DNA from: Fistulifera solaris
Lineage: Eukaryota > Bacillariophyta > Bacillariophyceae > Naviculales > Stauroneidaceae
DNA length: 64,000 nt
Reading direction: 5' to 3'
Assembly: GCA_030295235.1 (NCBI GenBank)
Contig: AP026153.1
Location: 62,001 to 126,000 of the forward strand
Shown: positions 9,143-54,780 of the stretch, in pieces
How the letters are laid out: each line of letters opens with the position of its first letter
How positions within the stretch are numbered: the first letter of the stretch is position 1
Program-made: the position numbers and the translations under genes
The notes under the pieces: generated by a model
What the model was told of the DNA's origin: nothing
Database searches by the model: none
Seen by the model: only the letters and a program-made list of their open reading frames with translations

Positions 9143-10346
9143 GTGTTTTCTATTTGTACACAATACGGCCTACCCACTGGTCTGTTAACAGTCACACCAG
9201 ATGATGCTGACAACTTCAAGATATGTGTCTATAAGAATGAAGTCGTACATCATGTGTCTATGATGCATAATTCGGATTTTGATTCTGTGCGAAACTATCT
9301 TTCCGAGTGTGAAGCGATAAGAGTTGATTATCCCGGTTTTGCTGAATTGGAGTTTGAGAGTGCCATGGACGTCGTGATAACGGACATTTTCGGATGGAAC
9401 CGAGAAACTGGTCATTCGGAATCTGACGGTGGTCTATTTGGAAAATTAAATTCATGGTTTTTCGCTGTTGAAGAACAAGGTCGAAAAAACGTTACACGGT
9501 CATTTCTTAATTTGGGTCGATGGTTGGGACGACATTATTTCCTCTGTACAATCAAGTGAAAGTCAAAACGTTGTAGAGAAGATGACAACATTCATGGAGA
9601 ATAATATCAGCACTTCCTGCTTTGATATAAAAGTTCAGTCCCGTTCCTCTGATCGTCTTTCTCATTCTACAACCATGGCAGAGATTGCCCTGCATCATAA
9701 TTGTACTGATCCAGATCCTGTGTATCAATACTGTACAGATCAACAACTTCACGGAACATGCGTTACCAACATTGCCAGAATTCACCCGAGGATTTACAGC
9801 TCGCTGAAATGTTTGAAATGCAAGCGATTGTTTACGTTGGATACGTTGATCAAAACAGCTATTCGGACCATTTTCTCGAAACAGATGAATCTTGAAGTGA
9901 CCCAGGACAACGAAGACATTTTATTCCGTTATATAACGTCGATATGCCAGAGTGGTTTCCCTGGATTGGAACCACTTATTGACTTATTACCTACGTCCAT
10001 TCGACTCTTTCTTTTACATGCAGCGATCTACATAATCAACGCCATTCGCCCACGGTGCTTCAAGAAAGATTCTTCATGCAGACTAAGGATACCATCAAAA
10101 CCACTTGCTACTGCTCAATGTGACTTTCTTGACAACCAAACAAGCATATGGTATACATGGAATGGCATCCGCCATACACGAAGACCATTTCGATTGACAC
10201 CAAAACGAAGTCAACTTGATGCTTTCACCAACATGTATCATCCTTTTTTAGGCGAGCTGTTTCATTGCAATACCAATTTCCAATGCATAATCGATGGACC
10301 CGCAATCATGTATGTTACGAACTACGCTTGTAAAAGCACGAACTGA
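9143..10346 (+). CDS. Helitron Rep (HUH endonuclease with Y2 motif)
   Basis: The HUH nuclease makes the strand nick in rolling-circle transposition. The upstream part reads FGLPTGLLTVTPDDADNF-like Helitron_like_N sequence near 9165-9215. The HUH motif is LHGHFLIWVDGW near 9495-9525. The Y2 motif is YVTNYACK near 10308-10332, with both tyrosines present. A CLKCKRLF Cys pair lies near 9810. The frame changes inside an A run at about 9485 and again just after the Y2 motif. The catalytic His and Tyr residues all look intact, so the nuclease core is well preserved. Confidence 0.75.
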
Positions 10347-11780
10347 AGACAAACTTGATCAATTAGGAGTATTGCTTTGCTTAAAGAAGGTTCTAGAGAA
10401 AGAGATTCGTGAACTTGAAGACCAATCTGAAACAGCTGACAACCCCATCTCTACCGCCTTAAAAACGCATTCTAGCATCAGCTCTGGCCGAAACATCAAA
10501 CTATATCATCAGCGCACCAATGGCAAAATATCTCATACTAAATGACTCTCGATTCGGATGCTCGCACATATTCTCTTTTCTCCCTATCCATGACTTCATA
10601 AAAAGCCAGACTTCCCTCGCAAAACTGGATGTATCCCTAAGGAACACCACATTCTTGTCGTCACGTCAGCGACACATACTTATTTCGACCGGATCATCTG
10701 AACGGCATCGATCCATATACATTCTATTCAAGTTTTCAAGTACGAACTGTTCGCGGCAACACCTGGAACGACACAGATCTCTTCAAATTTCAAAATGAAG
10801 CACCGATTGGATACAACAATCTGCGATTAGTTGAAGCCGAAACACGAACAATACCAACAATAAATTATCCGCTCTTCTCGTCCGGCACAAGTTTTCGAAC
10901 ACAATATTCTTGATAAAAATATCGAGACGAATGACTTGGTCGAGGATCATTGCAAAACAATTCTGTTGTTGTTTTGTCCTTATCGATCAGAAGAACAGGT
11001 ACTGACTCCCTTTGCATCATACAAACAATCTCTCATCTGCAAAATTGAAAGCCGGCAACTCAATCCGAAGTTCGAAACGTACATGCAGAACATGCAAAAT
11101 TGCAGGAATTCCCTCGACTCGCGTCACATCCCTGACATCTTAGAGGAAGGAACCGTTGAACTACCAGAACCTGAACGAAGTCAAAAGAAGCGAAAGTCAA
11201 AACTCCCTTCTGAGGAAATTCTCACTCACATAGATAACGACTTGTCAGCTGTTGTTCGCGGACTTACACGATACATACCTTCATAACGAACAAACCGACA
11301 CAACTTCATTCAATCTCGCCGCATTAACTGCTCAAGGCTCAAACGATTTACAATACGATCAAGGGCTGCAGCCAAAACCTGTATCGTTAGAAGCCGAAAG
11401 TCTCTTCGAGGGAAGAAGACCGCACAGACGAACAACATGATCATCAGATGACGCAAAACGATATTTATGAAGCAAGACCAGAAGTAACAGCAGCAACATT
11501 GATCAGTGCATATAGAAGCCGAGTTTGTCGACAGACCGCATTATCAGATCCCGACCGTCACAATGTAAGCAATATCAAAGCGACAGGAAGTCGCGAAAGT
11601 ATCCGTGAATGGGCGGAAGCTGCGTTTCGTGACGACGAAGATCAGAAAGCCGCATTCAAAGCTTTGATAGCCGATTTCGTTCTGCAATACACACGAGAAC
11701 CACGAATGATGTCCAGACACGAAAGTACGTATCTAAAAAAAATGGCAAAACGAATTAACCGAACTTCGAGGCTTGAATGA
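10294..11780 (+). other. Helitron Rep-helicase linker region
   Basis: Overlapping short frames (10294-10545, 10520-10798, 10936-11286, 11252-11440, 11448-11780) bridge the Rep and helicase parts. Codon use and orientation match the flanking Helitron frames. The segment near 10990-11090 (FCPYRSEEQVL) resembles the region before the Pif1 domain of Helitron proteins. No separate function can be assigned. The frame changes here are too many to say which are real. Confidence 0.5.
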
Positions 11781-13335
11781 AAACCTGAGCAATCCCGATC
11801 TCGAACGGCCCAGTCATCATGTTTCTTACCCGGACCAGGGCGGATCGGGAAAATCACATGTCATTCAAAACATAATCGAATATGCAAAACAATTCACTAA
11901 AGAGATTGAACAACCATTCACAACCAGAACAATTGCAGTAACCGCGATGACAGGTGTTGCAGCCACATCTATCCTCGGAGAAACGCTTCATTCTGCAGCG
12001 CACCTCGACATGCCAAAAGACGTCACACCGAAACTCACAAATACTACATTACTCAACAAAGTAAAAAAATGAATGGAGGGATACTAAAATGCTAATTGTC
12101 GACGAAATATCATTCGCGAAGCCAAAAGAATCTCCAGTCTCTGGCAAAGAACCTCGACCTCATTAAAGACTATCACAAAACCAATTACTATTATGGTGGA
12201 ATAACAATTTGCTTCGCTGGAGATTTCTCCCAATTAGAACCTATTAACGCCAAGGCCCTCTACCAAAACGGTCCGACCGATCATTGGCATAGATGGGTCA
12301 ACTCATTTGTCGAACTCAAAGGCGGTCATCGATTTCATGACCACGAGTACAAAGACATGTTGACTAGTCTGCGATCAACTGGTATTCTCAACGACCGTCA
12401 TCTAGCCATGCTCAACAGCAGAGTCCAAAAATTGAACGACTTGTCCAACATCCCACCGGGTACCCAGATCGCTTGTGCTGATAATAAAGACCGGTGCGCA
12501 CTGAACAATCTTGCATTCAGATCACATCTTCAAAGAAGCATACAGCACAACTTACGACCCCATTACGAACAAACCACCAGCGCACACCATGATCGTCAAA
12601 ATGTCCAACCTGAAATGGCACTTCAACAAAAAAGGCCTTTCTGAGAGTGCGAAACACACCCTGTTCGAGAAAGTGGGAGACTTCCAAATAAAACGAGCCA
12701 GCGACGACAAATTCTTTGATCCATTCCTAAAACTCTACATCGGTGCACCAGTTATGCTGTCTGAAAACGAGGGCGTCAAAAATGGCATTGCAAATGGAAC
12801 AACAGGAACGATAAAGAAAATAATACTCGCCAAAAATGGAAACGAAAATATCGAGGTCATAACCGTCGATGGCTACAAAGTCAATTCGATTGAAGTGAAA
12901 TTCATTGAGAAAATCATAGTTGACGTACGGCTTCCATCCACCAACACAACAAAAGACATAGCCCTCCACCCAATTAATTCAAAAGCAGACGTAGAAATGC
13001 CATTCGAGTGTATTCCCGGACACATTCAAACATCAACCGTGCCAATCTTATGCACTCAATTCACCTTCGTTCTCAACCACGCAACAACAGTTCATAAGTT
13101 ACAAGGAAGAACACTCGAAGCCCTCTACATTGCCAATTGGTCATACAGAAGGAATTGGGTCTATGTTGCACTATCTCGAATTCGAACACTCAATACATTG
13201 TATCTTCGGAGACCCATCAAACAAAGCGCCAAATCTACGACCATACTCCGAAATGCTCAAGATGCTCCAATATTTCAGAATCAACAAAACGTCTACGCTA
13301 TGACAATGACATATACTTATATTATACTTAACTAA
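11773..13335 (+). CDS. Helitron Pif1-family helicase domain
   Basis: Walker A is GGSGKSHV near 11840. Walker B is LIVDEISFA near 12093-12118. A GDFSQLEP motif lies near 12220, and the C-terminal helicase signature TVHKLQGRTL near 13090 is followed by YVALSRIRTLNTLYL near 13163-13200. These are superfamily 1B (Pif1/RecD-like) motifs that unwind DNA during rolling-circle transposition. The domain is split over three frames (11773-12072, 12096-12644, 12511-13335). All main motifs remain readable. Confidence 0.8.
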
Positions 13336-14014
13336 TAACCAGAACATCCGACTCCATTGTATACCTAGCAAATAAACTTCAGTCTTATTTCAACCCAAAC
13401 TTCACGAGCGCGACCACTCCCAATTTTGAATAAACAGAAATACTGTTACAATGCCATAATAGCAAACCCGTATCTTTCTTTCGACCTTTCTCTCCAACTC
13501 TTTAACCTTCTAATAGTTGCGAACACAGTGCCTATCCGAACTCAATATCCGAACCCAACCAACACAACACTTGCCAAAATCATCCATAAATTCTCAATCC
13601 CATTCGATCAACATGTTCCAACAAAAACAACGCCAAACCGGCTACACCATACGGCAGTCACCATCAAAAAATCCAAAAGATAGGACACAGACGACCTCAT
13701 GAACTCTTCACCTCTCCAATCAGAGGACATCACCTTGAATTCATCTCTTCTGCACATCCCACAAGAGCCCAAACCGATGCCTACTTACCAAACATCTACA
13801 GAAACATAGCCACCGACCAAGAACTACATGACCTTGGAATCTTTAGTTGGGCATTCGTTCGCTAGGATCAGATGGCCAGCCAGAAATGAATGCAGGCACT
13901 AGTTGGCCCCGAAGATTCCTCGTCGTTGAAAATGACCTTGACACACTTTTCAACAGAGCATACAAGATACACTAACTACTCTCGACAGAGTTACCGACGT
14001 TACGCCCAGGTTAC

Positions 14015-14557
14015 ATGCTGTACCCAACGACCAATCGAATAATACACAAAGGTTCTCCAATGAATATGAAGCACGCAGACCTGTCAAATACGCAATCAAT
14101 CCCAGAGACCAGAAACTTGTTTCAGCTGACCACTACATGCTCGATACGGCCATTATCCGGCTTCATGGAAAACAAATACGCTGATGACCTTGACGCCGAT
14201 TTTGTTCGAAACCACTATCCCGTGGCCTGCGGAATGTTCAACCCCTACCGTACAGATCTCCCTGAGCACCTCCGCCAATACGGTTTTCCCATTGGTACCT
14301 GCTTAGCTGCATCAGAATTTGCACCAACCGAAGATGATCCACTTGACGAACAAGATCGCATAGACTATCCACCTCACCATCAAGAACATCACCAACAAGT
14401 TCACCAACATGATTTTCAAGATAATCATCAAGAACATCGTCAACAAAATCATCAAGACACTAATCAAGAAGGACGTCAAGAACGTCGTCAACAAGGTCGC
14501 CAAGAAAATCGTCAAGAAGGTCGTCAACAACGCCGTCAACAACGCCGTCAAGAATAA
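14015..14557 (+). CDS. Gln/Arg/His-rich repeat protein next to Helitron
   Basis: A 180-residue ORF. Residues 1-120 are non-repetitive and include FVRNHYPVACGMFNPYRTD; residues 121-180 are a run of three-residue units of the type x-Q-E or R-Q-Q. Degenerate coding sequence appears to continue upstream to about 13600, so this may be the C-terminal part of a longer second ORF of the element. No homology is recognised. The repeat tract is also open in a second forward frame and on the reverse strand, a consequence of the 9-bp period. Confidence 0.4.
   Translation: MLYPTTNRIIHKGSPMNMKHADLSNTQSIPETRNLFQLTTTCSIRPLSGFMENKYADDLDADFVRNHYPVACGMFNPYRTDLPEHLRQYGFPIGTCLAASEFAPTEDDPLDEQDRIDYPPHHQEHHQQVHQHDFQDNHQEHRQQNHQDTNQEGRQERRQQGRQENRQEGRQQRRQQRRQE
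14375..14554 (+). repeat. 9-bp tandem minisatellite inside coding frame
   Basis: About 20 imperfect copies of a 9-bp unit close to CGTCAAGAA / CATCAACAA. The period is a multiple of three, so every frame keeps its own pattern: His/Gln/Glu/Arg in the main frame, Lys/Val/Asn in another, and Leu/Thr/Phe on the reverse strand. Confidence 0.8.
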
Positions 14558-15242
14558 AACCCAAAACAACCAATATCTTCATCTTCCAGCGTACAAAATC
14601 AAAAGACTACATTAACTCCATTTAAGACACATTGAGACTTTCCATAAAATTTCTCCCAATTCGCTACATTATTTTTTAAAAAAAATTCCCATTTCACAAC
14701 AACAAATTCTACACTTCACTATACAATATGATGTAGCAGCGAACGAGTACCGCAACGACCCAAGAAATCAATTCACTATACATTACCTGGTACCTGCTAG
14801 AGACTCTAGAGCCCTATACCAATCAAATGCGAAACCACGTAATGAACCAGGAAACGTAGACTTCTACGTAGCCCCTTATTTATACGGTCACCATAACCAA
14901 GACTCCCTTGACCATAACCTTACGACAACGCACGAATTGGATGAACCAACATAGCTTATGCATCCGTGACCGAATAGAAGGGATAATATCAAGGTGGAGT
15001 CGGTGTAACCCTAAGGCATAAATGCACGGTGACGTAGCGCTACCGATCCATCCCTGTCCCTAACACATCTGGATTGATTCAACATCACATCACTTTTCCG
15101 CCTCACAAAAAGGCGCAGCCTACAATCAAACAACAACCATGGACGCAAACAAAATTTGTTGCGACGAGAGTCTCTATTATCATCATTGTTTGTCTTCCTG
15201 TTATATTCATTACCTTTATTTTGAAGAAAGCTTTGCCCGAAC
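14558..15242. other. Helitron 3' flank and promoter of the next gene
   Basis: Non-coding. It contains a small palindrome CTAGAGACTCTAG near 14808-14820 and several TACGTAG motifs. A Helitron 3' terminus (hairpin then CTRR) could lie here, but I could not identify one with confidence. The last 100-150 bases should hold the promoter of the CLEC16A-like gene. Confidence 0.35.
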
Positions 15243-18200
15243 ATGAGTCAACAACACGAAAATGTTGTCGAGGAATTCAAGTTTGTATGGAATCGATTGC
15301 GAGCGAATTTATCGACCGAGGATTCGAAAAAAGTCCTGACAATGACACCGCAACGCAAATCACGATGGTTTGGACGTCAACAGGAGACGACTCCTCCTCC
15401 GACGGCACTGTATGTCACCTTGACACAAATGGAAACAATAGTCGAAGATTTACGACGATTGGCCGAGTTGGTGGTGATGGGTGAAAACGCCGTGACCGCC
15501 GGAGAAAAACAAAAGCCAGTTGAGAAGAATCAAGATATTCCAAAGGACGAGGAAGAAGAGTTAGACTTGACGACGATGTTACAATATCATGCACAATTGT
15601 TCGATTTATTCATTGAAGAACACGTCTTGTCGTACATGGTGGATCTGGTGCTCGGTACTCTCTTTTCTTCTTCCGCTACTGCCAAATTACTACCGCCATT
15701 GCCCGTCGCCACACAAGCCATTCAATCCATTTCCATTCTCATACAAAATGTTTCACAAGTGACCAGTTTGTATTTATTATTATCGAGCGATACGATCAAT
15801 CGGTTGAGTCAAGAGTTGCCCCTCGACGATTATCTTGCCGCCGAGCGGTATCTGCAATTGCAACACCTCGACAGCAGTTTGACTTTTGCTTCACCGGCCT
15901 TGACAGATTTTGCGACGCATTTTGTCACTTTACTGAAGTCACTAGCAATGCGAGTGACACCAGAGACGTTGCAATTCTTTGTACAGTATCCAGCGGAAGA
16001 TCGTCCCGCCTTGCAGTTTCCACTCTACGATCGGGCTCTGGAATTTTGTGCCGCGCATCATGATTCGTTTGTGCGGACAACGGCCCTCAACATTTGTTTG
16101 AATGTCTTGCGTCTGACGACCGTCGACGAACCGGCGCACGAGACGAGTGATCCACCGGCCCTGCCGGTGGGGGTGTTACATACCTCGTATTTGCCCTTCT
16201 CGGATCGTTTGTTGATTGCGCAATATGCCTGTCTGCCGCGACGTGTCGAACCACTGATTGCGCCGATATTTACAAAATTGGCGGAACGGTGGAATGCTTT
16301 GGAGGAACATTTGCGGGAGATACCCCCCGAGTCAAGTGACAGCCATGCCAAAGCGTCCCTGGTGAAACATCAAGTGAAGGTCGATCGGTGGTTGTCGCAG
16401 TGGCGCAATCAAGCGGATCAGTTGCACGATGAATTGCTCTTTCTGCAAGATGTCTTTCAAGTGGGCTTGACGTCTTTGAACGAGCAGTTGATTGAAATGA
16501 TGCTGGCGACTTTTGTGTATCCGTTGCAGCTTCAACCGCTACTCTTGTATTGCAAGTGCGTCGAATCCCCCGACAATACGAATGAATGTGACATACCTTC
16601 CGCACTGTGGGCACCCGCACAAGCGGCCTTGTTTACGATAGCGGCGTGTTTTCATTTCTTGGAACACCCGGCGTTATTGAAATTGTTGTGGGTCGCATTT
16701 TTCCATCCATTAAGTCCGGATTCGACGAGTGTGCCGACGATTCGTGCTCAATTGCAAGTGGAGTCCGTCAATGAAGCAGGAAGGCCCTGTTTGCGAATGG
16801 ATTCGCCTCTCACGGTAAACCTGAATAGCCGAGAAACGTATCCGTTTGGAAGTCGCTTCACGAATGCGGAATTACCGGATGTTTTCCGCCGAGGAGGCGT
16901 GCGTCTTTGTGTTGGCGCCCGCCTTGCAACAAGTGTTGGCATTCCGAGGGGATGATTTGGCCTTGCTCGCTAAAACGAAACCGAATCCTTATCGTCAGGC
17001 TTGGCTGACTTGCTTGCAGCCTAGCACATCGCAATTTAGCATGACGCTGAGGCACTTGGCCATTGGCACTTTGAATGCTGCTGTGCAAGCCTTACCAGTG
17101 AGCTTAGTATCTTCTATTCTTCTGGGAACTGATCTTCAACAATTTCATGACGATATGCCGATCGATGAAAGAGATCTAGATTCAACTGCAGCACATATCG
17201 ACGACCGGGGTCTGGGTAGCAGCAATGTTTACCAATCCAGACATGCATTGACCAAAACGAGAGGAGTGGGTACGGATCATATGGGTGTCGTCGTGTCGCG
17301 ACTGGCGACGAGTGTTGTCTATCAGTCACCAGGACAACAGCAAATTTATGATGCAACCGCAGCTCACGCACTGATATACCTTGTCTATACAAACCCGCAA
17401 GCGTTAAAACTAGCTGCACAGAGCATTGATTCTGTGTGGCGGCATGCGGCGCACGCGTCGTGCCGATCCGCTGCGTTGCTGAGAGATTGCCCTACTCTTC
17501 GTGGAGCTCCGAGTATACAAGACCCGAGATATGATGATAAATTGGCGACGGCTCTCATGGACATGGTGGTGTACGGAACTGGCGACTTTCCCCAATTTCA
17601 GCCGGGTTTGGCTGATTTTCTGATGCAATCTACTAGTGAACCGTATCCATCGTGTACTCTCGCCGTTTGGTCGTGCGGCACTTTTCCGGACCTAATTGAG
17701 CAAATCGGGAAACAGTTTAGAAAGGCAGCTTTCAAGAATGATGAACAGAAGCTACTGGAGGAAAAACGTACAAATCTGCTCTACATTTGGCAACTAGATG
17801 CTTTTGCCTCCTTGTTGAGAGATTTGTCAGCCACACAGGGCGTTGCCTTGCGTTCCGTTTCACAGTTGACAAGTCTTGTGCGCTTGGACGATGGGACATT
17901 TGCAAACAAGGATTTTAGTTCGATTCAACGCAAGCGCCAGGCGTTCGCTACTTTGTCTCCCAAAGCCTTAGACACTCTATTTTGTGAAGATGCAGTGACT
18001 GTCCTACCGGAAATCGGTTCCACTATAGACATTGTTGGCGCTTTGGCTGTTCCGTGCGTTTGTGAAGCGCCACCCAAGTCGGCGTTGCCTATTGCGGAAG
18101 GCGTTTCCTGGCTGTCGCTTTACCTTGTACCTCAAGACAGTAGTTTGCTTTTCGTACAACAGGATATGAAACTGCTGATGGCATGTCCTTTAGAACGAGT

Positions 18201-28109: not shown

Positions 28110-29201
28110 TCATACAATTTCCAAACTCCCCGACCGGGAAGTCGGTGCTTTTCTTCGATTCCGTGAATGACTTCGTTCACTACTACTGTGCGGTGATGAC
28201 GAAGGTGATCGATGATTGGGTGTCAGTGTTTGCATTTCCACATCGTCGTTTAAGGCAGACGGTCGCTCTAATTCGTTATTGTCGTCGTCTTCCACATAAA
28301 CTTGTTGCATGGCAGGATCCCATTCGTATCCCAACACGACGGGTCGTAATCCAGTGGGAAATTGGAGGGCATGAAAGGGCGACCATCGGTTTGTGTTTCC
28401 TAACACTTCATTGAACGGCACTTCGTGACGATGCCATTCGGTCCCGTGTTGTCCCACTTTCATTTGCATACGGGCAATTTTATTGTAACCCGTTTGTACG
28501 GCTTCCCATTGTTCGTAACCCATGGCCGTGGTGAAAATCAAAAACAAACAACTGATTCCGGCCAAAATCAATAGGAGAGGATGACTGTGCAATGACGACG
28601 ACGTGTTGTCGTGACACGGCGTCGAAGATCGTTCTTCTTCCTCGGAACACAACCATGCGGCTCCATAAAATTGCAAGCCCAATAGTAACAAGACTTGGAT
28701 ACAACAGAGAGCTGTGTAGAGTAAAAACAGCACAAAGAATTTATGATTCCCAATGCCGACGGCATTGTTGATCCAGGGACAATAATGATCCAATTTGACA
28801 ATGCATCGTCCCGTTTGACTGTCGTGATGCGCACGAGATGGTTTGAAATTGTCGTGGCATTTCGGGCATCTTCGGATGGTGCGTTTGGTTGTCGAGTCGA
28901 CGGATCTTACGGTCGTTAGAGGACGCGCTCCCAACGGCACGGCACCTGGATCGGTTGTGGTCGCTTGATACAAGGATACGAGTGCCAGCAGTGTTGTGGG
29001 GCAATAGAGGATCCAAAAACAAGCCATGGCGACGGCCGACTGGGAAATAAGGTAGAAAAAGCTCACTAAAACAGAATAGATATGTATACTGACGGATACT
29101 AAAATTCCCAACAACCCACCGATATTCCAAGAACACCATCGTTGCGCGGTAAAGGACGTTCCGTATCGTTTCCCGCACACGGAAATTTCATGGCGGGGCA
29201 T
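28110..29201 (-). CDS. DHHC-type palmitoyltransferase (DHYC variant)
   Basis: A 363-residue protein S-acyltransferase of endomembranes that attaches palmitate to cysteines. Four transmembrane segments are visible: IGGLLGILVSVSIHIYSVLV, VAMACFWILYCPTTLLALV, FFVLFLLYTALCCIQVLLLL and PLLLILAGISCLFLIF. The Cys-rich domain sits between TM2 and TM3, preceded by a TTDPGAVP motif, and carries CPKCHDNFKPSRAHH and the active-site variant DHYCPWINNAVG in place of DHHC. DHYC occurs in active enzymes such as yeast Akr1. The C-terminal tail is acidic, then Ser/Arg-rich. Single exon, intact frame. Confidence 0.9.
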   Translation of the reverse strand: MPRHEISVCGKRYGTSFTAQRWCSWNIGGLLGILVSVSIHIYSVLVSFFYLISQSAVAMACFWILYCPTTLLALVSLYQATTTDPGAVPLGARPLTTVRSVDSTTKRTIRRCPKCHDNFKPSRAHHDSQTGRCIVKLDHYCPWINNAVGIGNHKFFVLFLLYTALCCIQVLLLLGLQFYGAAWLCSEEEERSSTPCHDNTSSSLHSHPLLLILAGISCLFLIFTTAMGYEQWEAVQTGYNKIARMQMKVGQHGTEWHRHEVPFNEVLGNTNRWSPFHALQFPTGLRPVVLGYEWDPAMQQVYVEDDDNNELERPSALNDDVEMQTLTPNHRSPSSSPHSSSERSHSRNRRKAPTSRSGSLEIV

Positions 29202-47171: not shown

Positions 47172-48638
47172 TTATGTTTCACTATTTGTCTCGGACAAGG
47201 GCGGTGCGGGAGGCCATTTGCGCGATTGCCGCGTAAATTCGCGGAATTGACGGTCCTGCACTTGCGTATGAGGCCATAAATCCGGTCGACTGACACTTTG
47301 TCTCCGTATCACCGGTGCCCCCTTGCGCGCCGAGCGATTGTAAAACAAGACGTACGCCGAACTTTGATTCCGTCGAAACGCTCGTTCCTCCAGTTCGTGG
47401 CACCGCGTGTCATTGAATTCGTACCATTGTTCCGAAAATCGATTCAAGGCGTACGCGGTGTAATGTCCCGAGCCGAGGTTTCCCACGTGATTGGAGAGTG
47501 CGTATAAATCAAAGAGGGGATATTCACTGCCTTGACTTAGGACGTGCCGTGACAGATCCCAATTCCGGACGGGATATGCAATGGGAGCTTCATTTTTGGA
47601 TCCCATGCGACCATTTTCTTTGAATTTGAATCGTTTCAAATGAACAATGAGAATTGGCGGCAAAATCCACAAATCGGTCTTTTTGGTGGCATCCCGATGT
47701 TTTTGACATTGCGAACAGTACCACTGATTTTCTCCCGACAAGGTTTCTTTGGCCAAATACAAACGGAGACAATCTTCCAACGACCGACAATGGGCCGATA
47801 TGGGCAATGACAAATACATGAATGGTTCGAAACGAATGTTTTTGTGACGGCATTTTAAACACTGGACCTCACTCCGCAGCTGCCCTTGAAAGATATCGAC
47901 AATCAAGGATTTGTCCCGACATAAATAATTTTTCCAGGCTTCAATGGCATCTTGTTCATCATTCGTTCCATCACAGTCTTTATCTTCGATATAAGGTTTC
48001 TTTTTAATGCGATTCAAATCTTCATGAATCCCATCCAACAGAAACGAAAGTAATTCTTGCGCGTCGTGTTGATGATATCCTTTGAATTGCGGTGCAAATT
48101 GTTCCAATTGAGCTTTGAACGCGACGGGCGATACGGTCGATTGCCGTCCCAACCACAAGTCTTTCATCAAGGCCGCGTACGCCGTCACTAATTTCCCACC
48201 CGTTCCCAAAAAATTGTCGTGATTGATTTCGGACCGATAATCGTAACCCAAAAAATAGTCCGTCAACGGAATTGTCGCACTCAAACATTGGATACTGGAA
48301 TTGAGAAAACAAGTATTTCCCAAATTGGTCAAGCCAATGACACCCAATGGCGTGTTATCACGGGACTTTTGCATAATTTCTTGAAATTGGGAGGCAACGG
48401 CATCGGACACGTGATTGTAATTGCGGGCACGTTGGGTCGGTGAATGGGGAATTCGTGAATTAACGCGCAAGAACGAAGGACGGAATGATCGGCGTCGTTT
48501 GAGTCCGTTGGGTGTTGTAGTATTGTTGGTTGTTGTGTTGATATTGCGACTCTTGGATCGTGTACGAGGACCGTTTGGCTTCGTGTCATCGTCGTCTTTC
48601 ATCTCTTCGGCATTCATTTTTGAACAGGAATCGCCCAT
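47172..48638 (-). CDS. Ubiquitin-specific protease (USP, C19)
   Basis: 488 residues, one exon. The Cys box GLTNLGNTCFLNSSIQCL puts the nucleophile at Cys110; the His box GSGHYTAY gives His392, and Asp410 lies in YEFNDTRC. A zinc ribbon is formed by CLKCRHK and WYCSQCQKH. QHDAQELLSFLLDGIHEDLN and VHLKRFKF are further USP hallmarks. The N-terminal 95 residues are basic and disordered (RSKSRNINTTT, LKRRRSFRP). Layout is closest to the USP4/8/15 or Ubp-type core without extra domains. Convergent with the gene at 44979, 69 bp between stops. Confidence 0.93.
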   Translation of the reverse strand: MGDSCSKMNAEEMKDDDDTKPNGPRTRSKSRNINTTTNNTTTPNGLKRRRSFRPSFLRVNSRIPHSPTQRARNYNHVSDAVASQFQEIMQKSRDNTPLGVIGLTNLGNTCFLNSSIQCLSATIPLTDYFLGYDYRSEINHDNFLGTGGKLVTAYAALMKDLWLGRQSTVSPVAFKAQLEQFAPQFKGYHQHDAQELLSFLLDGIHEDLNRIKKKPYIEDKDCDGTNDEQDAIEAWKNYLCRDKSLIVDIFQGQLRSEVQCLKCRHKNIRFEPFMYLSLPISAHCRSLEDCLRLYLAKETLSGENQWYCSQCQKHRDATKKTDLWILPPILIVHLKRFKFKENGRMGSKNEAPIAYPVRNWDLSRHVLSQGSEYPLFDLYALSNHVGNLGSGHYTAYALNRFSEQWYEFNDTRCHELEERAFRRNQSSAYVLFYNRSARKGAPVIRRQSVSRPDLWPHTQVQDRQFREFTRQSRKWPPAPPLSETNSET

Positions 48639-51436: not shown

Positions 51437-51655
51437 TCACTCTTCGGAAGAATAGTGCGAGCTTTCTACCGAAACGGTGCGAACGGAGGAATCATTGTCG
51501 AGCAACGGATGTGGGTGCGCTTGTCGATAACTTCGGACGGGGCACCCCGTCGCTCGCGCCTCTTTCAGTGCTTGCTTCGTGAGTAAATGAATGCTATCGT
51601 CTAGTTGGTCAAAGTGTGCTACTGCCGCGGAGGATTTGGATGCTTGGCAACCCAT
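51437..51655 (-). CDS. MGC microprotein 1 (predicted myristoylated)
   Basis: 72 residues. It begins MGCQASKS: Gly2, Ser6 and Lys7 form an N-myristoyltransferase signature and Cys3 is an ideal palmitoylation site, so a plasma or endomembrane-bound protein is predicted. Core: LDDSIHLLTKQALKEARATG then VRSYRQAHPHPLL, followed by a Ser-rich acidic tail. It is a clear paralogue of 54544-54780: identical MGC..S start, DDSIH, a helix of similar length, and A.PHPLL at the same spacing. No known family was recognised. Confidence 0.7.
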   Translation of the reverse strand: MGCQASKSSAAVAHFDQLDDSIHLLTKQALKEARATGCPVRSYRQAHPHPLLDNDSSVRTVSVESSHYSSEE

Positions 51656-52632
51656 TTTTAATGTATTATGAAAGGAGTTGCGATGCGTTGATTATCTTCT
51701 TGATTTGAAGAAAATAATAAGAAATGAAAATATCCTGAGAAGAAAAGCTTTTCGTTTCGTCGACAATTTTTGCAACGCTTGTTCGCTCGTCTATGCAGGA
51801 TTTTTTTGGCCCAGGCAACAACGACGCCATAATTCTACGATTAGTACTAACGACGTATTCGCTTTTGTCACGTAATGTCATAGAAATTGAGCGATCCGAA
51901 ATCGATGTCAGGGTGACTCCGAACAAAGTAGTAGCTGACATCAAGCTTCTCTTCCTCACGTTCTCTAAGATACTTATCAAAGTATACACAGAGATGAGCA
52001 TAAATCATAAATCATCTTTCTTTCCGTGTTATAAATTTAATCCAGGCTCAAAAAGAATTGCCCCTCGCAGATGAAAGAAAACTTCAAGACATCACCGAGC
52101 GAGTCTCTGTTTAAAAGTAGCTTTCGTTGAGAACATAAACTACACTTAGACTTTACGTTCAATACAATATACAATTCATTGTGGTTAATTTTTTAATTCC
52201 GGAACTTTAACCCTGACATGTTGAAATGTTGAACATCATAGATTTCTGTTGACTTAGTGTAGCTTTTTCCAGAGACAGAGATTTAACAAGTACTCGTTGG
52301 CGAATGACGAATGACGAACGACGAACGTCCAAATTTCGCTGGCTTCCTCGGTATGAAAAAGTACAAGCTGTGACACGCGAAAACCATACACAGTACACAG
52401 TTCATTCAGAGTGAGTCACGAATGATGAGATTTGGAATTTGGAATCCTGCGCAGCAAAATGTCCGCTAATTTTCGCAAACAGAGCAACGAAGATGGAATG
52501 AAAATGATGTATACCTGGTAAGCCTTACAAGTAAGGGAAGCCAAGCACATCCTGTTCATGTGTTTGCTTTACCAACCAGGTCTCATTAACATTACAAATA
52601 ATCAATACTTTTTTGATTAAAAAGGAAATGCG
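51656..52632. other. Intergenic, no gene seen
   Basis: About 1 kb. Contains near-palindromic GGTAAGCCTTAC near 52518. Short ORFs lack support. The 5' part should hold the promoter of MGC microprotein 1. Confidence 0.4.
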
Positions 52633-53073
52633 ATGGATTGTGGATCAATAATAGCATTTGGCGCTGTTTGCATTCTGCTGATACCAGTTGTTCTCCTTTT
52701 GATCGATTTGACAGCTACATCAGCGGCAGTGAATCACAAGGAGATGTCGATAGAAAATGATTTTATTGACGACAAGAAAGAAGAGACCGCGGAAAAGAAG
52801 AGTCTGTCGAGCCTAGTGAAGAAACAAACGACAGCGCCGTCAATCCTGTGGACACCCAAACTAATGGATGGCGATGCGCATGTGAAGGCGGATTTTGCCA
52901 CCGGGTTTGTTGCAGAATTTTTCGGGAGCCGAAGCCGTGCTGCGAATGAGCGCGGGTCGATGTTACCACAAAAAGAACGTCTGACGGGGCGGTCGCACTG
53001 TTCCTCTACGTTCTTTTGCAGCATTTCAGGCTGGAATGGATTTTTCATTTATCCCTGGGAGTGGGAGAGGTAG
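52633..53073 (+). CDS. Hypothetical small membrane protein
   Basis: 146 residues. Residues 6-28 form a strong transmembrane or signal-anchor helix (IIAFGAVCILLIPVVLLLID), followed by a charged, Lys/Glu-rich stretch. No homology recognised. The C-terminal 50 residues (Cys/Ser/Trp-rich) look random, so the real gene may end sooner or contain an intron. Confidence 0.35.
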   Translation: MDCGSIIAFGAVCILLIPVVLLLIDLTATSAAVNHKEMSIENDFIDDKKEETAEKKSLSSLVKKQTTAPSILWTPKLMDGDAHVKADFATGFVAEFFGSRSRAANERGSMLPQKERLTGRSHCSSTFFCSISGWNGFFIYPWEWER

Positions 53074-53405
53074 AGGCTGCGTTCTGGTGACCTGCGCCGG
53101 AAAAGTTGAATTTGAAGGCATGATTTGGCGTTCTTGGAAGACCTAACATCATCATTGCGTTTGATTGAAAGTCTTCGACGTATAAAAAGAGTACCAGTGC
53201 GTCGTCCGCCATGCAGCGGTGAGACAAAATAAATGAGAACAGGTCGACGGAAAAAACGCGACAAAAATTCAAAATGATGGAACGAAAAAGATTCTTTCAC
53301 ATTATCTTTCTGTCGATCGAGTCACCGTGCGCAAAGATATCGATGATACGTTTACATTCTGCATAGTTTGAAACGACACTTTGCTACAAACACCAAAGAA
53401 CGAAG
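53074..53405. other. Intergenic, no gene seen
   Basis: No support for a gene. Its 3' end should contain the promoter of the next gene. Confidence 0.4.
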
Positions 53406-54251
53406 ATGATTGGAGATAACGGCAACTCCCTGGAGCAATTCGCTCCCGACGCCGCGTCGCTCTTCAACAACATGAAAACACCGGCATCCATTATTGGCGG
53501 TGCATTGGTTTCTTTGGCCATTGCGGGTCCTTTACCGCTGGAGGGTTCCTCGCGTGAAAACCGTTCGCTGAAAATGGCTCGAGCGTTGTACAACGTGATT
53601 GGCGTTCTCAGCTTCAGTTCCGAATTGCTGGTAGTCATTTGGGCGACCGTCGCGTCGAACAAATTGGTCGAGACGCACGTGGAGCCGGCACAGAGTGTGT
53701 GGCATCTGATTGAACGCGATTTTAATCTCGAATGGGCGGCGACGAATGCCCATTTTGTTGCGGGCATGTTGGGATTCTTGGTACTTGTGGCCCTTCGCAT
53801 GTTCTTTCACGCCGATGGCGGCTTGTTGGGAATGGGAATCGCGGGTATTCCGCTCTCCGCACTTTTGTTAATGATTTCCGTGATCAACCGGGGAGTTGCT
53901 CGAGGTTCCGGAGACGGCCATCGTTATGGTGCTAATATTGGGTCGCTGTTTACGACTTATTTGTCGTTGTTGACTCAGCGAGCATGCAACAAGTCTTGCG
54001 TAGGATACTTGGAAATGGGGTCCATTGTTTTGTTGTTGACGAGTATGGCAGCAACTTTCAAGGGCGTTGCCGAACGATATCATCTTGGCGAATCAAAAAG
54101 ACCAATTAAACCGAATACAAATGGTCGAGTATGCGAATACGAGGTCAGCAATTGCCTAGCCTGTTCAACGTGTAAGCCAGTTAGTTATTTACATCAAAAG
54201 ACGCGTTTCTTTCTAGAGTGTAAGACAAGAACCTTAGATTCCTACAATTAG
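53406..54251 (+). CDS. Multi-pass membrane protein, unknown
   Basis: 281 residues with about five hydrophobic segments: SIIGGALVSLAIAGPLPL, YNVIGVLSFSSELLVVIWAT, FVAGMLGFLVLVALRMFF, GMGIAGIPLSALLLMISVI and MGSIVLLLTSMAATF. Charged loops (GSSRENRSLKMAR; RGSGDGHRYG) lie between them. The start MIGDNGNSLEQFAPDAAS has no signal peptide. The last 50 residues are Cys-rich and less convincing, and could be read-through past an unspliced site after residue 230 (LGESKRPIKP). The family is not recognised. Confidence 0.65.
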   Translation: MIGDNGNSLEQFAPDAASLFNNMKTPASIIGGALVSLAIAGPLPLEGSSRENRSLKMARALYNVIGVLSFSSELLVVIWATVASNKLVETHVEPAQSVWHLIERDFNLEWAATNAHFVAGMLGFLVLVALRMFFHADGGLLGMGIAGIPLSALLLMISVINRGVARGSGDGHRYGANIGSLFTTYLSLLTQRACNKSCVGYLEMGSIVLLLTSMAATFKGVAERYHLGESKRPIKPNTNGRVCEYEVSNCLACSTCKPVSYLHQKTRFFLECKTRTLDSYN

Positions 54252-54543
54252 TTGCTCACGACTCACGACTCACCAGCCGAAGGAACAAGAAAGAATCTCC
54301 GAGTACCGCTCCGTTACACTGTGACCCACAGTTAACTTTCCAGCTCAGTACATTTTGCTCGGAGTTGACACCGGCATTCCAGACGCGAAGCTGGTCGTTG
54401 TTTCGTGTCAATCAACGGTTGCTTTCGTCATTAATTATTTGAAAGAACAACTTTGACATTGCAAACAAAAAAAGCTCGACGAACCACTCAATCTGCATTT
54501 CGCTTACGCGCCTCCTTCACCCTTCAACGAATTTCATAACAAA

Positions 54544-54780
54544 ATGGGCTGCAATAGCTCCCGAGCGGCCGAATTTCACGCCGAGTGTGTAGACGACAGC
54601 ATTCATGCCATGCTGGCACGAGAAATACGAAAAGCGCAACAGAAAGGGCATAAAGTATGCGGTTACAAGCCAGCGCAACCGCATCCGCTTCTTCAAAAAC
54701 GACCAGTGACGTGCACGGAGGACGACGACGATGAAGTTCAAACGACTCTTTGTTCCGTCAGTGGCAGCATAACTGCATAA
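54544..54780 (+). CDS. MGC microprotein 2 (predicted myristoylated)
   Basis: 78 residues. The start MGCNSSRA again has Gly2, Ser6, Arg7 and Cys3. The core is VDDSIHAMLAREIRKAQQKG then VCGYKPAQPHPLL, with a Thr/Asp-rich acidic tail (CTEDDDDEVQTT). Paralogue of 51437-51655 on the opposite strand, 2.9 kb away. Five cysteines compared with two in the paralogue. ATG context ACAAAATGG is good. Its stop lies 145 bp from a Harbinger-like element. Confidence 0.7.
   Translation: MGCNSSRAAEFHAECVDDSIHAMLAREIRKAQQKGHKVCGYKPAQPHPLLQKRPVTCTEDDDDEVQTTLCSVSGSITA

Follow-up and report, generated by a model that had tools for sequence, protein, structure and literature searches.

The protein AKAP7-alpha (AKAP15/18) is an animal PKA anchor of ~80 aa that is myristoylated on Gly and palmitoylated on nearby Cys residues (positions 5-6), and it binds its partner through one short stretch, an amphipathic helix. 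In kinetoplastids, HASP/SHERP-type proteins are small, hydrophilic and N-terminally acylated. The G-gamma subunits of G proteins (~70 aa) are also lipid-anchored. N-myristoylation follows a simple rule: a Met-Gly start, permitted residues at positions 3-6, and a small residue or Ser at position 6. Cys3 next to a myristoylated Gly2 is a classical palmitoylation site. Genes of this small size class are often dropped from genome annotations.

Two proteins of this kind were proposed from a window of 64,000 nucleotides of the diatom Fistulifera solaris (assembly GCA_030295235.1, contig AP026153.1, positions 62,001 to 126,000 of the forward strand; coordinates below are those of the window unless another contig is named). 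The original prediction held that two related small ORFs on opposite strands share the motifs MGCxxS, DDSIH and PHPLL and a helix of ~20 residues, begin with a dual-acylation signal, may be membrane-bound adaptors or signalling peptides and belong to no described family. Both ORFs were found, together with two neighbours that are the longest plus-strand ORFs between them:

51437..51655, minus strand: type A gene, 72 aa, with an MGCQASK start, LDDSIH and HPHPLL
52633-53073, plus strand: 146-aa ORF between A and B, homoeologue at L053:5938-6297
53406..54251, plus strand: 281-aa ORF between A and B with long hydrophobic stretches (by eye), a neighbour and not a family member
54544..54780, plus strand: type B gene, 78 aa, with an MGCNSSR start, VDDSIH and QPHPLL

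The type A and type B genes lie on opposite strands in a divergent arrangement and find each other when the whole genome is searched: query A matches B at E 4.3e-6 (42% identity), and query B matches A at E 3.9e-6. Without the first six residues, the two proteins align with a score of 94, whereas shuffled sequences average 23 and 0 of 1000 reach 94, so the proposed relatedness exceeds chance even when the MGCxxS start is set aside. The type A frame is intact on both homoeologous contigs, C36 and C37, and the C37 copy (A') is 93% identical to A. The C37 copy of B (B') matches in two pieces of 81% and 89% identity, split by a one-base frame break past ~codon 34.

The 281-aa ORF has no Pfam match at 0.001, and it is identical to its C37 copy at 224 of 232 aligned residues. 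The 146-aa ORF begins MD[CF]GS[IV]IAFGAVCI..IPV.LLL.DLTATS; its hydrophobic stretch is kept between homoeologues in the first part, after which the frames diverge, and by its sequence it is possibly another membrane microprotein. Elsewhere in the window, the two strands differ strongly in composition over positions 10001-16000 (GC skew as low as -0.26, AT skew as high as +0.22), and the end of an ORF at 12589-13335 resembles a PIF1/Helitron-type helicase by eye; this region is perhaps a mobile element.

Searches of the whole F. solaris assembly (51.7 Mb, 61 contigs, with the window at C36:62001-126000; E up to 10) with five type queries place A and B in one family of five types (A-E), each at two homoeologous places, for ten places in total. 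Even with E allowed up to 10, no query matched the genome outside these ten places. Query A recovered 7 of the ten, B and C 8 each, E 7 and D 5; these match counts are lower bounds, and intron-split genes could escape. The types are linked by matches of C to B (E 7e-6), E to A' (E 6e-5) and A (E 1.5e-3), and D to C (E 8e-4 to 1.2e-3). Once the first six residues were removed, eight of the ten type pairs were reached by 0 of 1000 shuffles. The weak direct pairs were A-D (p 0.03) and D-E (p 0.79), and by the latter value types D and E are joined only via other types. In a tree of the seven aligned rows no branch is starred, and those leading to D, E and B are long.

At seven of the ten places the reading frame runs unbroken from the start codon through the core. 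The other three, the copies of B on C37, D on C42 and E on C32, are each interrupted by a one-base frame break, with an additional stop in the E copy. For B and D, an error of assembly and decay are equally likely because A-runs lie beside the break, while for E the stop and the weak constraint make decay the likelier cause. In type C, the first frame after HPL runs on to 107 aa (C42) or 117 aa (C43). In both type C homoeologues, a second frame would give an alternative tail, rich in Asn and Glu and closed by TGA codons at aligned positions, with the first frame open longer.

Selection was assessed between homoeologues by a Nei-Gojobori count of dN/dS:

Type A, on C36 and C37: 71 codons, dS 0.69, dN 0.031, ratio 0.05
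Type B, on C36 and C37: 73 codons, dS 0.63, dN 0.018, ratio 0.03
Type C, on C42 and C43: 52 codons, dS 0.24, dN 0.020, ratio 0.08
Type D, on C43 and C42, ~0.9-1 kb beyond type C: 40 codons after the break, dS 0.43, dN 0.025, ratio 0.06
Type E, on C33 and C32: 53 + 27 codons in two pieces, ratios 0.40 and 0.44, with the stop scored as a single difference

The pooled ratio is 0.09 over 316 codons of the five types. Excluded from these counts are the last codon(s) of A, the tail of C, both ends of D, part of B's acidic run, and two codons at the break in each of B and E. Differences between homoeologues fall mostly on third codon positions (positions 1/2/3: A 3/2/23, B 2/2/20, C 1/1/7, D 1/1/9). 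With dN/dS of 0.03-0.08, types A-D show strong purifying selection, and constraint on type E is weaker (dN/dS ~0.4). Pooled over the five types, homoeologue identity is 0.91 for the 60 bases that follow the ATG, against 0.59 for the 60 bases that lead up to it and 0.68-0.69 for the 180 bases upstream of those. This step in identity at the ATG supports the proposed N-terminus, on which any lipid prediction depends. Given the purifying selection and the conservation step, A and B are real, selectively maintained genes.

In an alignment of seven rows (A twice, B, C twice, D and E), the residues M1, G2 and S6 are invariant, as are D, S, G and P within the core. The motifs MGCxxS, DDSIH and PHPLL hold for A and B as proposed but do not extend to the family as a rule, since one type starts with MGQ and the C-terminal end varies. 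As read from the alignment, the corrected motif is an invariant core MG...S...DS...G...P. Cys3 is present in four of the five types (A, B, C and E). Type D instead has Gln3, a basic run RKRR at positions 7-10, and only a distal CCC. Positions 4-5 vary across the rows, and position 7 holds Lys in types A and C, Arg in B and D, and Cys in E. Types A and B carry DDSIH itself, and types C, D and E have DDSVH, SDSVH and TDSLR at this site; the C-terminal ends of A-E are HPHPLL, QPHPLL, AEHPLC, SPFPS and EPHPLV. In type E, an insertion of ~15 residues separates the start from the core. The helix of the original prediction stays putative: the conserved middle (18 residues) is only weakly amphipathic, and its hydrophobic moment against shuffles gives p 0.07, 0.11, 0.16, 0.42 and 0.04 for A-E, below 0.05 in one of the five types.

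The explanation that best accounts for this anatomy, with a probability of roughly 0.6, is that the family consists of membrane-anchored adaptors or regulators with a docking core, where lipids, membrane site and binding role are all inferred. The members would be intracellular proteins of ~70-120 aa held at a membrane by N-myristate on Gly2. Palmitate on Cys3 would be the second lipid in types A, B, C and E, whereas type D would use myristate plus the basic run RKRR instead of palmitate. Besides a variable tail, all would share a short binding element composed of DS[IVL], ~15 mostly polar or charged residues, G, ~12 residues and a proline-containing, HPLL-like end. This element would most probably dock a single type of protein, its partner, which would thereby be recruited or restrained at the plasma membrane or an endomembrane. 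No enzyme or known domain was recognised in Pfam or the PDB, which would fit a binding peptide more readily than a catalyst. The small size and the charged conserved stretch with its invariant Asp-Ser would also suit short inhibitory peptides that sit on the membrane and regulate a kinase or another enzyme in the manner of a pseudosubstrate; this inferential alternative seems rather unlikely.

The membrane-anchored adaptor reading depends on the lipid anchor. By eye, the N-myristoylation start rule fits all five types; the predicted palmitoylation would concern the four types with Cys3, and as a family rule it is contradicted by the MGQ start of type D. The genome encodes N-myristoyltransferase (NMT; two matches, on C1 and C2, E 7.1e-74 and 8.6e-74) and DHHC domains (36 matched pieces, 32 over the cut-off), and with these enzymes present myristoylation, plus palmitoylation in four of five types, is plausible. 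Conversely, the proteins might be cytosolic and lack a lipid anchor, with the MG start incidental. This is quite unlikely, as all seven rows keep Gly2 and Ser6 but differ at positions 4-5, which is the pattern expected of an NMT substrate. The family proteins are thus predicted from their starts to carry a lipid anchor, with high confidence.

Two further acylation-related features were noted in the window. A DHHC palmitoyltransferase domain lies at 28300-29000 on the minus strand (Pfam E 1.9e-26), ~23 kb from the family genes, and the homoeologous contig C37 has a DHHC match too (67974-68438). A ubiquitin carboxyl-terminal hydrolase (UCH) at 47172-48638 on the minus strand starts with MGDSCSK in both homoeologues, and by this start the deubiquitinase may itself be myristoylated and palmitoylated.

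A relation to G proteins is very improbable. On this view the family would be mimics or parts of these proteins, either an alpha-N-helix freed from G-alpha or the G-gamma that is missing from pennate diatoms, N-acylated instead of C-terminally prenylated. The MGC..S start is common to the family and F. solaris's own G-alpha, and the genome has no G-gamma (PF00631) match over the cut-off, with one weak place at E 0.128 (18.2 bits vs 27.1). G-gamma was found in only one of four diatoms in one study (PMC3727952). Against this, the G-alpha N-terminus compared with A-E past residue 6 gives shuffle p values of 0.24, 0.76, 0.87, 0.31 and 0.03, so homology to the alpha-N helix, an idea that came from the shared start and spacing, is unsupported. 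Two human G-gammas compared with A-E give p 0.017-0.84 in ten uncorrected tests, the two lowest values coming from G-gamma 1 against E and D. Pfam searches of A, B, the C core and D with E up to 10 returned neither a G-alpha nor a G-gamma match, and the PDB search with the family profile returned none either. With no GGL profile match and pairwise scores near those of shuffles, G-gamma homology is likewise unsupported.

The weakest alternative, that these are chance ORFs, unrelated short frames sharing an MGC start and a few residues, draws on the commonness of such starts (2601 ATGGGNTGY sites on both genome strands vs 1610 for the reversed control pattern) and retains next to no probability, as it is contradicted by the cross-matches at E 4e-6 and by three more paralogue types at two places each, and is refuted by the homoeologue comparison (dN/dS 0.05 for A and 0.03 for B).

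The claim that no described family has these motifs agrees with the searches, which gave no significant match in Pfam, the PDB, IMG/VR or the GTDB species genomes. With a Pfam limit of E 10, A and B had one weak match each, far under cut-offs (DUF2604 0.074, Luciferase 0.046), and there was no match at all for the C core or for D; type E had no match at 0.001, G-gamma included. A profile search of the PDB returned nothing at E up to 10. By tblastn at E up to 1e-3, no relative was found in IMG/VR (queries B, A and the C core) or in the GTDB species genomes (query B); both hold viral or prokaryotic contigs by description, so these two nulls are uninformative on diatoms. Titles and abstract beginnings on diatom microproteins, acylation, NMT and lineage-specific small proteins appear to contain no description of the family, and the matches listed for the DDSIH and PHPLL motifs and for the F. 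solaris oil-body proteome appear to contain none either. The excerpted text of a study of F. solaris homoeologue expression has no mention of small proteins (PMC5935921). The five-type family is apparently undescribed so far.

As a more tentative proposal, the proteins could represent dual-acylated microproteins of diatoms, perhaps of stramenopiles at large, in which the DS[IVL]-charged stretch-G-HPLL-like core is a new docking module that anchors a signalling protein; this is possible, though doubtful. One report calls the F. solaris genome allodiploid and presents gene editing in which guides target both homoeologues (PMC13276009). Of 8 distinct gRNA and primer sequences taken from it, all 8 occur in the present assembly, each only on its assigned homoeologue (4 of 4 on one and 5 of 5 on the other, with the shared site included in both figures); that shared 23-base gRNA site has exactly two occurrences, on C38 and C39. 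At the adenine phosphoribosyltransferase genes the assembly is therefore F. solaris or cannot be told apart from it. The present analysis adds a conserved gene family, in an easily dropped size class, to an oil-producing diatom that is amenable to editing of homoeologue pairs. Through their predicted myristoylation (invariant Gly2 and Ser6), the members are ready candidates for mapping the diatom acyl-proteome, and partner capture with them offers a direct route to what they recruit.

Among known systems, G-alpha (PF00503, present in the genome) has the MGC..S start in common with the family, but the family lacks the GTPase domain. G-gamma (PF00631) resembles the family in size and in the family's predicted lipid anchoring, whereas A and B lack a CaaX end. 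The likeness to HASP/SHERP-type proteins lies in small size, hydrophilic character and the predicted acylation of the N-terminus, and does not imply surface export for the diatom family. AKAP7-alpha, with no sequence relation claimed, resembles the family in size, in the family's predicted dual acylation and in its putative short binding stretch, although the Cys residues of AKAP7-alpha stand at 5-6 rather than at 3 and its binding helix is amphipathic. By this analogy, small acylated anchors such as AKAP7-alpha appear to be the best functional analogues, and the best reading is a new family that would be functionally like these anchors and is not a member of any named family.
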